Shown here one piece after another: positions 59,789 through 64,000 of a stretch of DNA of 64,000 nucleotides. How positions within the stretch are numbered: the first letter of the stretch is position 1; each line of letters starts with the position of its first letter. Source of the stretch: Winogradskyella ursingii (GTDB lineage: Bacteria > Bacteroidota > Bacteroidia > Flavobacteriales > Flavobacteriaceae); assembly GCF_013403975.1 (NCBI RefSeq), contig NZ_JABFDH010000003.1, positions 310,001 to 374,000 of the forward strand. The letters run 5' to 3'. The notes under the pieces were generated by a model that worked only from the letters and a program-made list of their open reading frames with translations, did no database searches and was not told the origin of the DNA. The position numbers and the translations under genes are program-made.

Positions 59789-60499
59789 TCAGTCCCTCAA
59801 AGTCCAAATCTCATGAATTGGGTCACCTTTACTAGATAAACCTGAGTGATGCCAATTGCCATCAATCAATTCGTAATTAAACTCCAAACTCGCACCTACC
59901 TTAGAGTCATCTCTAGAAAAGAATTCGATATTCTCAATATATTCACCATTATCGGTGGTGTAAGTGCCTCCTCCAGTTCCCATGAACTGTTTTGTTTCAG
60001 TATTATACGCGATCCATTGAAAGCGCGTACCAGATAAAATTTTCATTGTTTTTCTTGGACGGTCTATATCTCGATTTTGAATTTCTCCATTTCTTATTCT
60101 ACCAGACATAAGCCATGCTCCTTGCAATGCACCTGGCTCCCCTTTATCAATTCTATTGAATTTTAGGTCTTCACCTTCTATTTCTAATACATTTTCTTTG
60201 ACAGAAACTTTAAAACTAGACGCACTACCAACCAGTTCAGAATTGTCACTATTAAATTCAACTTTTTGATTTATCGTATCGTCCATTAAATTCCAGGAAC
60301 CACCTTTAGTTTTTAAAAATTTTCCAGTGGTAATATTATAAGTACTAATTGCGTAGTAATCATTAGCATAAATGGCTACTTGCTTTATCCGGTCTCCATT
60401 TTCAGACTTAGAGATGGTTTCCCATGCACCAATTGCACTTTGTGCATTAACAAAAAATGATACAGAAATGAATACGAGTAAAATAAACAATCTTGTCAT
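59789..60499 (-). CDS. Secreted two-domain lipocalin-like protein
   Basis: A 236-residue exported protein with signal peptide 'LFILLVFISVSFFVNAQ' cleaved near residue 19. The mature protein has two similar halves: the first begins 'GAWETISKSENGDRIKQVAI' with 'GGSWNLMDDTINQKVEF', and the second 'GAWLMSGRIRNGEIQNRDID' with 'GGTYTTDNGEYIENIEFF'. Each half reads as a small beta-barrel of the lipocalin-like type, so it looks like an internal duplication. It is probably periplasmic; a ligand cannot be inferred. There is no close same-strand partner (136 bp separate it from the STAS gene). Confidence 0.78.
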   Translation of the reverse strand: MTRLFILLVFISVSFFVNAQSAIGAWETISKSENGDRIKQVAIYANDYYAISTYNITTGKFLKTKGGSWNLMDDTINQKVEFNSDNSELVGSASSFKVSVKENVLEIEGEDLKFNRIDKGEPGALQGAWLMSGRIRNGEIQNRDIDRPRKTMKILSGTRFQWIAYNTETKQFMGTGGGTYTTDNGEYIENIEFFSRDDSKVGASLEFNYELIDGNWHHSGLSSKGDPIHEIWTLRD

Positions 60500-60634
60500 G
60501 ATTCCAATTTTTTAATTAGTAACAATTTATTACACACCTAATTAAGTGTATTTCAAATTTAAAAAACAATTAAGTAAAAAATCACATCTTCCTAGATTGT
60601 TTGATTTTTATTTTCTTTTTATTCATTTAAAATA

Positions 60635-60991
60635 TCACTGCCTAATCCAAAGCATTGCTTTCTCTTTTTCCTCCAAATCAAAATATTTGACTTCGGAACT
60701 TGTGAAAAAATCGGTTGCTTTAGTAACAAATTCTTGCCATTTCTTTTCGCCTACAAATGCTATTTTTCCATAATCTGAAATATGTGCACTATCTACTTTT
60801 ATATCTTCCCAAAATCCTTTTAGTGTAAAGCCGTCAAAATCTTCTATTTTAAATAAGAAATCTACTTTATCATTTTCCATTAAAATTTTGTGAATGCGCT
60901 TGTGGACTTTTTCAACTTCAGTTTTTGAAATTTTACCGCTGATTTTTGCTGAAATCAAATTATCTTTTTCTGAATTTAATAGTTGTATCAT
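60635..60991 (-). CDS. SpoIIAA-like STAS/SEC14-type protein
   Basis: A 118-residue protein of the SpoIIAA-like (DUF3478) family. Visible features are the N-terminal strand-helix 'AKISGKISKTEVEKVHKRIH', 'FLFKIEDFDGFTLKGFWEDI' near 45-65 and 'HISDYGKIAFVGEKKWQEFV', followed by 'FTSSEVKYFDLEEKEKAMLW', the usual end of the family. Members are cytosolic and of unknown activity, some of them lipid-binding. It lies 51 bp past the permease stop on the same strand and may be co-transcribed with it. Confidence 0.87.
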   Translation of the reverse strand: MIQLLNSEKDNLISAKISGKISKTEVEKVHKRIHKILMENDKVDFLFKIEDFDGFTLKGFWEDIKVDSAHISDYGKIAFVGEKKWQEFVTKATDFFTSSEVKYFDLEEKEKAMLWIRQ

Positions 60992-61042
60992 AATTTTGCT
61001 TTTTATAATTAATACTTAATTTAATGCACATATCGTGCAATG

Positions 61043-62269
61043 TTAAAGCATAAACTTTATTACTAAACCACCTGTAAGCCATACATAACAGATGAATGCA
61101 GCGTACTTTAAAATCTTTTCAAGTAATGGGCTTTTTGGCGCCATTTCGCTCATTGAATGCGCTATGTTCTTCCTTTTAAAAAAACCCAAGTATATAAGAT
61201 ATCCTGAAATGGCGAGGAAAACTATATTGAGATAGAACGTATAATCCAATTTGAAATGGTCTTTATCTTGAATCTTGACCTGGGAAGGGTCCGGCAATAT
61301 ATTTAACAAGTCAAAAGAGTAATGCAATGCCAAAGATGTTCCGATTAACGCTGTGAAGAGTAGAAATAGAATAAATAGCGACATCTTCCATCCATAATAT
61401 TTTGCATTGATACGCAAAACGGGAAAAACGACTAAATCACTAAAAATAAAAGCCATTACTCCTGCAAAACTTACACCCTTTCCAAAAAGCAATGCCGCCA
61501 AAGGAATGTTGCCCATAGAACCAATAAATGTCAAAAAAGCAGCAATTGGCCCTACAACGATATGTTCCAAAACTTCAAGAATACTAAAATCCGTTTTTCC
61601 TTGACCACTGTTAATGAATAGTGTTTGAAAAAATGAATCTGGCACAAAGGCCGCTACGATTCCGGCAATGGTAAAACCTACGGTCACATCTTTCCAGACC
61701 ATTTGCCATTCCATCTTATATTTTTTCGCAACCCTTGCCCAACTTTCTTCTTTCTGTATTTGCTTTTTCCAGTCCTTGGAATCGTCTATTTCATCAGAAT
61801 CCTGTCCTTCAAGATTTTTCCGTGCCTTTTCAATCAGTTTTTTGGGATTTATAACACGAATGAGGATCCAGCAAATGAGAACGAGTAAGAGACCTCCAAT
61901 ATATTCGCCAACAACAAACTGCCATCCCAAGAAGATTGAAATGATGATTCCAAGCTCAATTACCAGATTGGTTGATGCCAATAAAAAAGCTATTGAAGAA
62001 ACAAAACTTGCTCCTTTTTTGAATAGAGATTTAGCACTTGCAAGTGCAGCGAAGCTGCACGAACTGCTTATAAACCCGAAAAACGTACCCAACAGCACAC
62101 TTTTAGATTCATTCTTACCCATCGTTTTTTGCATCCGTTGTTCGGTTACAAATATCTGTATCATACTACTGATAATGTAGCCCAATATGAATGCCCAAAG
62201 AGCCATCCAGAAAAACCCTGTTGTGGTATAAGCAGCTTCGCCCCATTGTTCCAAAAAATCATCCATCAC
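61043..62269 (-). CDS. ArsP/YraQ-type permease
   Basis: A 408-residue integral membrane protein with about ten hydrophobic segments. 'GFISSSCSFAALASAKSLFK' near residue 60 carries a conserved-type Cys in a membrane helix, and 'LLASTNLVIELGIII' and 'TFIGSMGNIPLAALLFGKGV' are typical of the DUF318/ArsP_1 permeases. Family members export trivalent organoarsenicals or act on other metals; the substrate is not established here. A basic cytosolic loop (about 145-190) separates the two halves. Directly upstream, 9 bp from its ATG, lies the end of a decayed Fur-family gene that probably once regulated it. Confidence 0.87.
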   Translation of the reverse strand: MMDDFLEQWGEAAYTTTGFFWMALWAFILGYIISSMIQIFVTEQRMQKTMGKNESKSVLLGTFFGFISSSCSFAALASAKSLFKKGASFVSSIAFLLASTNLVIELGIIISIFLGWQFVVGEYIGGLLLVLICWILIRVINPKKLIEKARKNLEGQDSDEIDDSKDWKKQIQKEESWARVAKKYKMEWQMVWKDVTVGFTIAGIVAAFVPDSFFQTLFINSGQGKTDFSILEVLEHIVVGPIAAFLTFIGSMGNIPLAALLFGKGVSFAGVMAFIFSDLVVFPVLRINAKYYGWKMSLFILFLLFTALIGTSLALHYSFDLLNILPDPSQVKIQDKDHFKLDYTFYLNIVFLAISGYLIYLGFFKRKNIAHSMSEMAPKSPLLEKILKYAAFICYVWLTGGLVIKFML

Positions 62270-62277
62270 AATTTTGT

Positions 62278-62655
62278 TTATTGTCCGCTACAGTTATGGC
62301 AAAACCTTTTACTATAAGGTTTACATTTATATGGAGAATTACTGTTCTGTCAAGCAAACAGTTTTTCCATAAATAGCGCAATGAAAATGCAAGTCGGTTT
62401 CAGTTTCACAATTACACCCCTTTTTTCTGAAAGGGTATATTTCATAATTACAGCGGCATTCAATATTTGGTAGATGATAGACATATCATTTAACGTTTAC
62501 AGCTTTACAAAAGATAAATGTTTAAGTCTTTTCAAAATCTATGAATATCTGTAAATTGCTAAAACCTCTATTTCTGCAAGAAATTTATAAATTAACGATA
62601 ATATTGCCGTAACCCGAATATCTTTTAACTCTAAAAATTGTGCTAGTCTTTACAT
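62278..62655 (-). pseudogene. Decayed Fur-family regulator gene
   Basis: A 378-bp remnant close to the full length of flavobacterial Fur-like regulators. After ATG at 62655 the next codon is TAA, then 'LELKDIRVTAILSLIYKFLA' reads as the Fur N-terminal helices. Another stop and frame changes follow through the DNA-binding part (62490-62545). The zinc-binding part is readable from 62485 to 62342 with 'IECRCNYEIYPFRKKGCNCE' and 'DLHFHCAIYGKTVCLTEQ'; a stop and frame change then lead into 'PYKCKPYSKRFCHNCSGQ', whose CHNC is the C-terminal zinc CxxC. The Cys expected after HC is Tyr. At least two stops and two frame changes rule out a working gene. Confidence 0.82.
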
Positions 62656-62805
62656 ATTAGTGGAAGTGTTAAACACCAAAAGATTTTCTGATAATTCGGA
62701 AATTAATATAATCAGAAAGCAATTGCGGCACTGCAACTCAAAATCATTTACGCTACTTTGAGTATAAAAATGACATGTTCAAATCGCAAAACCAGCTTAT
62801 TAGAT

Positions 62806-62840
62806 AAAAAAAAAAATCCCAAGCCAACGACTCAGGATTT
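62806..62840 (-). terminator. Terminator of the ferredoxin gene
   Basis: On the minus strand AAATCCTGAG and CTTGGGATTT pair over 10 bp (two G-U pairs) around a 7-nt loop, followed by a run of T residues. It lies 29 bp past the ferredoxin stop and is a good intrinsic terminator. Confidence 0.85.
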
Positions 62841-62868
62841 AATTATTCATTTTAAATGTCACTTATAC

Positions 62869-63222
62869 CTATCCTTCAGGATGCATAAATTTTTGTTTAG
62901 CCAATAATTCTTCTTCAGTTTCAACTATATCTTCATCTGGCACACAGCAATCCACAGGGCAAACCGCAGCACATTGAGGCTCCTCGTGGAAACCAACACA
63001 TTCTGTGCATTTGTCTGGTGCAATATAATACACCTCATCGCTTATAGGCTCTTGAGGCTCTTCCGCATCTACTTCCTTTCCACTCGGTAAAACCACATTG
63101 CCTTCTAAACTGGTTCCATCTTTATAGCGCCAGTCATCCGCACCTTCATAGATAGCAGTATTTGGACATTCTGGTTCACATGCTCCGCAGTTTATACATT
63201 CGTCCGTTATTATAATTGCCAT
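62869..63222 (-). CDS. 4Fe-4S dicluster ferredoxin
   Basis: A 117-residue ferredoxin started at the ATG at 63222, where '[20 protein letters not shown]' begins; the frame is open 34 codons upstream but that stretch covers the promoter region. Cluster motifs are C-x2-C-x2-C-x3-C in '[11 protein letters not shown]' and a second set in '[17 protein letters not shown]', which has the longer spacing seen in YfhL-like ferredoxins. The insert between the motifs (about residues 35-75) is acidic. It is an electron carrier in the cytosol with unknown partner. A strong terminator follows, and it is divergent from the acyl-CoA reductase gene. Confidence 0.93.
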
Positions 63223-63289
63223 AGTATTTTTTTCTCTTTTTGTTTGTGTAAATTTGCACTCACTTTTATCCGAATTGATGGACAAAGTG

Positions 63290-63297
63290 CAAAAATA
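63290..63297 (-). promoter_or_regulatory. Candidate -7 element for the ferredoxin gene
   Basis: Minus-strand TATTTTTG matches TAnnTTTG, 68 bp before the ATG at 63222. It supports the later start because the upstream extension of the frame would overlap the promoter. Confidence 0.5.
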
Positions 63298-63327
63298 AAG
63301 CCAAAATAGTGCATAACCAAACACAAC

Positions 63328-64000
63328 ATGGATTTACAACAAAGAATTAACGCTTTCGCAAAACTTGGAGCATTTCTGGCTCAATTTATACAAGAAGGCA
63401 TAAATAAAAATGAATCTATAGCACATAACGATTTGTTTTTTGAGGGTTTTAAACATCAAATAAAATTAGCTAATGAACATAATGGCTGGTTTACTAAAAC
63501 CAATATTATTTTTGCTTTAGAATCCTGGTCTAATGCACTGACAGAAAGTAATATTAACCAGTGGACAAACAAGTATAGCTTTAATATAAAAGAACCAAAA
63601 ACAGTAGCCATTATTATGGCAGGAAATATACCTTTGGTTGGCTTTCATGATTTTTTGAGCGTGCTTATTTCTGGACATAATGTATTGGTTAAACTATCTT
63701 CTAACGACAAACATTTATTGCCATTTTTGGCTAAGTACCTAGAAACAATTGAACCTGAATTTAAAGGAAAAATCACATTTACGGACAACAAACTAGAACA
63801 TTTTGATGCCGTAATCGCCACAGGAAGTGACAATACAGCTCGTTATTTTGAATATTATTTTAAAGACAAGCCGTCTATAATAAGAAAGAACAGAAACTCG
63901 GTTGCGGTTTTATCAGGAAAGGAATCGCCTGAACAGTTAAAAGAACTATCCGAAGACATATTTAGATATTATGGTTTAGGTTGCCGCAACGTTTCCAAAC
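63328..64000 (+). CDS. LuxC-like acyl-CoA reductase, partial (3' end beyond window)
   Basis: An ORF from an ATG at 63328 to the right edge (224 codons visible) with no stop. The sequence reads as the N-terminal part of the LuxC-type acyl-CoA reductase family: '[20 protein letters not shown]', '[20 protein letters not shown]', '[20 protein letters not shown]' and the segment '[13 protein letters not shown]' that holds the active-site Cys. The enzyme reduces an acyl-CoA to aldehyde with NADPH. The pairing with a divergent ferredoxin gene is known in Flavobacteriaceae. A TAAATTTG at 63249-63256 may be its -7 element. Confidence 0.9.

Follow-up and report, generated by a model that had tools for sequence, protein, structure and literature searches.

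Does the apparent blank between a ferredoxin gene and a permease gene of the marine bacterium Winogradskyella ursingii hold a former regulator, and was that regulator ever the partner of the permease? The window analyzed here is a stretch of 64,000 nucleotides (64 kb) of one contig, and coordinates refer to it. An initial annotation had read the blank as the broken pieces of a Fur-like gene and the permease as a transporter that may have lost its repressor; our data bear out the first part and speak against the second.

A dead Fur-family gene upstream of the permease

The minus strand of 62278-62655 is a dead Fur-family gene (Table 1). The three pieces quoted in the initial annotation are all present and were found in order by tblastn: the N-terminal piece M*RLAQFLELKDIRVTAILSLIYKFLAEIEV lies in the minus-strand frame starting at 62739, the histidine/cysteine piece KKGCNCETETDLHFHCAIYGKTVCLTEQ in the frame starting at 62740, and the terminal CHNCSGQ again in the frame of the N-terminal piece. 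A further piece, VNLIVKGF, occupies the third minus-strand frame. The span given for the gene fits its whole former extent, with the ATG at 62655 and the stop codon at 62280-62278 (378 bp, compared to 414-417 bp in most intact relatives), and its place directly upstream of a PF03773 permease was also correct. As had been noticed, codon 2 is a stop; further stops occur, and the alignment shows several changes of length of up to about 28 bp, so that no open reading frame for a whole repressor is left.

The homology to the Fur family (PF01475) runs in ordered pieces along the whole protein. A translated comparison by tblastn, with intact Fur proteins as queries, yielded two matches in order (best joined E value, 1.2e-16; 2.6-kb subject, search space of 3 kb), and in a second run of intact Fur proteins against upstream stretches the best joined E value at the pseudogene was 5.3e-15. 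With 20 Fur proteins as queries, the best single match reached 46.2 bits, compared to a maximum of 25.4 bits in 500 dinucleotide shuffles. The intact paralogue of the same genome (L003), compared to the whole window, matched the pseudogene more weakly (E = 3e-6). At the DNA level, 33 of the 68 genomes of the genus, own genome included, have matches to the pseudogene, with 66-88% identity over the matched pieces. The short open reading frames inside or overlapping it (62350-62484 and 62259-62381) had no Pfam match, and a tRNA scan of the 64-kb window found none.

Table 1. Features at the ferredoxin/permease locus (window coordinates)
Feature	Position	Strand	Basis or remark
SpoIIAA-like gene (PF11964)	60635..60991	-	Pfam; directly 3' of fur in several intact clusters
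TGCACATATCGTGCA, 15-bp TGCA-N7-TGCA palindrome, likely Fur-type operator	61025..61039		Recurrence at fur and czcA genes
Intact ArsP_1-type permease (PF03773)	61043..62269	-	189.5 bits; Pfam cut-off, 32.3
Fur-family pseudogene, ATG to stop, broken by stops and length changes	62278..62655	-	tblastn, shuffles, codon-position counts
Terminator-like hairpin between the pseudogene and the 3' end of the ferredoxin gene	62814..62840	-	Match to the consensus only; the region holds 3 such sites (1.9 expected)

Intact relatives in czc metal-efflux clusters

Where does such a gene belong? Of 17 stretches fetched around the fur matches of congeners (L042-L058), 16 carry an intact fur; the 17th is the pseudogene site of genome G034 discussed below. 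A gene for a CzcB-like membrane-fusion protein precedes fur in 13 of the 16, with a cation-efflux gene in between in two (L056 and L058), a 728-residue gene does so in three (L047, L052, and L055), and a gene for a P-type-ATPase-like protein lies downstream of fur in all 16; these families were tested with profiles for L056 and judged by eye elsewhere. In L056, fur is followed directly by a SpoIIAA-like gene; loci of other genera, including L193-L196 and L207, have the same arrangement. The intact kin of the dead gene are therefore found in clusters of the order czcA-czcB-fur-(SpoIIAA-like)-P-type ATPase, which agrees with the earlier statement that Fur-like genes of related bacteria sit beside metal genes. 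The Fur protein of L056 scores 42.4 bits with PF01475 and matches the PerR-type structure 2fe3 of B. subtilis at 9.3e-6.

Some side observations were made on these clusters. In genome G261, a fur fragment at about 1177-1440 of L213 precedes a SpoIIAA-like gene; its C-terminal half is open and no N-terminal half was seen, which makes it a further broken fur copy in the family. SpoIIAA-like genes with an in-frame stop stand beside intact fur genes in L206, L214, and L215, so that this gene decays elsewhere too. Long open reading frames starting with MTTK (595-598 amino acids where complete) occur near czc clusters (L224, L225, L226, L045, L049, and L050) and resemble, by eye, partition-type proteins, which suggests carriage on conjugative elements.

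TGCA-N7-TGCA as a candidate operator

The spacer that follows intact fur genes reads TGCACTTCC(A/G)TTGCA or a close variant of it. An exact TGCA-N7-TGCA starts 1-4 bp after the stop codon for 21 of 31 distinct Fur proteins (letter-shuffled spacers, 3 of 6200). Seven of the other ten resemble, by eye, other Fur types, including L002 and L003 of the own genome; the remaining three (L058, one of L209, and L206) do not. For czcA, the count covered 21 distinct genes that fit the start pattern and were preceded by 300 bp of sequence; all 21 have the motif upstream, within 700 bp (0.25 expected). In L225 and L226, its position is internal to an open reading frame that we took as called too long. The loci with the motif after fur or upstream of czcA include L042-L056 and L222-L231.

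The −7 element of Bacteroidetes promoters is TAnnTTTG. A perfect copy of this box starts 12 bp after the motif at all 21 czcA genes, and the best similar box after the fur-linked motifs has 0-2 mismatches and stands mostly at 13 bp. This arrangement is consistent with a repressor site overlying a promoter. The recurrence at promoters of fur-linked genes (21/31 fur and 21/21 czcA, at loci that came from fur searches and are related to each other, so that the counts are not independent trials) argues for an operator, and TGCA-N7-TGCA looks like the candidate operator of this czc-linked Fur group.

The copy in the window has the arms TGCAC and GTGCA, lies inside the 51-bp gap between the end of the permease gene and the SpoIIAA-like gene, and is followed by a −7-like sequence with two mismatches. 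The motif is not overrepresented in the window (two copies, the other inside the permease gene, compared to 1.12 expected; 31 of 100 shuffles reach at least two), and therefore, only the place of the copy at 61025-61039 speaks for it. Genome-wide, the motif occurs at 58 places in 3.48 Mb, compared to 26 for the pattern read backwards; from this count, the probability of a chance hit in the 51-bp gap is about 0.0006. At the corresponding place, G034 carries a version with two mismatches. From the start of the pseudogene to 62900, we found no copy with up to one mismatch and, hence, have no reason to place the permease under the operator; since the site at 61025-61039 lies behind the permease gene, the permease is probably not under its control.

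The Fur paralogue L003 of the own genome is encoded in a czc cluster on contig C11 (L222), and the first gene of that cluster is preceded by TGCACAACCTGTGCA, which has the same arms as the palindrome of the window. From these shared arms, we infer that the L003 Fur could act on the site in the window. As a separate observation, a metal-gene island of contig C11 is nearly or fully identical to DNA of other genomes: 12,292 bp in L059 (G000:C11:283000-300000) show 100.000% identity to Marinirhabdus gelatinilytica (L066), and 15,805 bp in L060 (G000:C11:358000-375000) show 99.84% identity to G163 (L232). We attribute this identity to a recent intergeneric transfer; contamination is the less likely alternative.

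The permease and its neighbors

In the window, the order is dead fur, permease, SpoIIAA-like gene, and the permease starts at a GTG (62269) or an ATG (62266), 8 or 11 bp 3' of the former fur stop. Genes for the ferredoxin and YchF flank this cassette. Matches to the ferredoxin are present in 64 of the 68 genomes of the genus, matches to the SpoIIAA-like gene in five, own genome included. Ferredoxin and YchF genes lie on the same fetched stretch in 7 of 20 congeners, and in the ferredoxin neighborhood of these 20 there was no match to the permease, the SpoIIAA-like gene, or fur (19 inform, as L173 ends just after the ferredoxin gene), so that the cassette looks like an addition at this site. 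A search for remnants of other czc-cluster genes beside the permease (60601-63230) found none; only fur and the SpoIIAA-like gene stood out, and the remaining matches (E = 6e-5 and weaker) we attribute to chance or low complexity. The loci compared include no intact fur-permease-SpoIIAA cassette; that one formerly existed we infer from the layout.

The designation ArsP type holds as the Pfam name but not beyond it. The permease belongs to the same superfamily as the SO_0444 Cu/Zn efflux transporter, SaoE, and the PF03773 ArsP_1 permeases, but differs from the first two: its scores with the nearest NCBIfam models are 57.8 bits for the SO_0444 Cu/Zn exporter (NF033936) and 52.8 bits for SaoE, far below the curated cut-offs of 300 and 325. 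Compared to four other copies, dN is 0.04-0.08 and dS above 1.6, which points to purifying selection; as dS is saturated or undefined, we relied on codon-position counts. Of the differences from these copies, a share of 0.75-0.81 falls on codon position 3, and hence, the permease is not decaying along with fur. In a plasmid collection, the single match was to a permease and covered 40% of the query (65.7%).

Was the permease robbed of a long-standing repressor? Of 82 permease loci, only one (L139) has a fur open reading frame, at a distance of 4.6 kb (flanks of up to 6 kb, some shorter); in G343, the permease and a czc-fur cluster are about 10 kb apart within one island (L231). The usual neighbors are proteins with HMA-like metal-binding starts, found in 77 of 83 loci (a single-linkage group, named by eye). 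The SpoIIAA-like gene is a direct neighbor in 3 of the 83, namely, in the window, G034, and L139, and in family samples of 397 genomes each, it comes within 1 kb of the permease only in the window. Among 87 stretches upstream of permeases (82 distinct sequences, 7 of them shorter than 2 kb), a fur remnant was found only before the permease of the window and one of those of G034. From the rarity of fur and the HMA-like neighbors, the permease looks as if it was inserted into a fur-SpoIIAA pair. The initial idea of a lost partner repressor would require an old, conserved transporter-repressor pair, with the permease of this strain now constitutive and its own repressor dead. We regard this as improbable: the remnant does precede the permease start by a few base pairs in operon order, and does so in two genomes, but 1 fur in 82 loci, neighbors that are other metal genes, and a likely operator that lies after the permease instead of before it all speak against such a pair.

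Decay of fur in two genomes

Besides stops and length changes, the pseudogene has lost the codon-position constraint of its living relatives. Compared to each of 10 intact fur genes, a share of 0.42-0.47 of its differences falls on position 3; in pairs of these intact genes, the share is 0.58-0.86, with a median of 0.68.

The congener G034 (L057) has the same layout of fur remnant, permease, and SpoIIAA-like gene, with fur decayed differently. At the protein level, the significant match of its remnant is limited to 25 N-terminal residues (E = 4.7e-5); a DNA match covers 58 bp (E = 4.9e-7), and, judging from the alignment, a large part of the middle seems to have been lost. The two remnants have no length change in common (one alignment, by eye), so that decay was probably separate in the two genomes. 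One residue change is common to both, VTAI in place of the VTAM of the intact genes shown. The permeases of the two cassettes are sisters (100/92; bootstrap not fully settled). Their SpoIIAA-like genes are not: that of the window groups with L193 (93/90), that of G034 with czc-cluster copies (97/92). A single assembly of the cassette is therefore not clean, and exchange or two assemblies are possible. In the same tree, the end branches of the two SpoIIAA-like copies are 0.22 (window, 60635-60991) and 0.16 (G034, L057 6840-7196), and those of their nearest relatives are shorter (0.044 and 0.022-0.093, respectively), a hint of relaxed selection.

Could the stretch be kept as regulatory DNA or as a leader of the permease, and not be neutral debris? 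The N-terminal part is the sole significant match in the G034 remnant and has the highest DNA identities in the pseudogene of the window, but it is well conserved, by eye, in living fur genes too, and most of the middle is gone in G034. Furthermore, Rfam gave no match at gathering thresholds in 60000-64000, sigma-70-like sites in the region are at chance level (10, compared to 11.2 expected), and no TAnnTTTG was found upstream of the permease (62266-62868), although this absence means little because 26 of 42 long open reading frames of the window also have none within 200 bp. Retention of this kind is very improbable, and decay of fur remains our reading. That the frame is intact in the real genome is scarcely credible, since sequencing or assembly errors would have to account for several stops, several length changes, and the lost codon-position bias together, and a second broken copy exists in another genome.

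Discussion

In sum, the minus strand of 62278-62655 is very probably the dead fur of a fur-permease-SpoIIAA-like cassette that was derived from the type of czc metal-efflux cluster present in relatives. In our model, the permease would have come to lie downstream of the fur stop codon and upstream of the operator-promoter of the SpoIIAA-like gene, and the flanking efflux genes would have been lost or left behind. With its efflux targets gone and further Fur paralogues encoded elsewhere in the genome, the local gene would have become dispensable and then decayed, apparently separately in the window genome and in G034. The permease gene, which precedes the operator still present, would be expressed from another promoter and not be under this Fur, and the SpoIIAA-like gene may still be controlled at 61025-61039 by the intact Fur paralogue of contig C11.

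A wider reading is conceivable but doubtful: an efflux-island Fur regulon of Flavobacteriaceae, with TGCA-N7-TGCA at both promoters, may have been invaded by a permease, its repressor may have died twice separately, and a Fur paralogue encoded on a recently acquired island may now act in trans at the operator that survives. Among the matches listed in a literature search, we found no description of such a Fur-type regulon in metal-efflux islands of Flavobacteriaceae.

The pseudogene resembles the Fur/PerR/Zur family (PF01475) of the czc clusters of Flavobacteriaceae in its ordered pieces over the whole length and its terminal CxxC; it differs by stops and frame changes and by replacement of the second cysteine of the inner CxxC. 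The CxxC cysteines of this family presumably bind metal. As for the DNA site, the Nur box of Streptomyces, a binding site of the Fur family, reads tTGCaa-N5-ttGCAA (PMC3919588). It is like the candidate operator in having two TGCA cores seven bases apart; the candidate operator differs in adjoining czc-type efflux genes in Flavobacteriaceae, where it is a putative binding site of the local Fur.

Biologically, the dead gene is a case of ordinary decay, and its setting is unusual; what deserves to be followed is the candidate operator TGCA-N7-TGCA, which is the new part of this finding. A blank between two genes hides the origin of the cassette and led to a candidate operator common to the Fur regulators of czc clusters in Flavobacteriaceae. 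As a rule, Fur proteins repress their targets at high metal levels. Such a shut-off would be odd beside exporters, and a defined operator makes the mode of action of these regulators directly testable.
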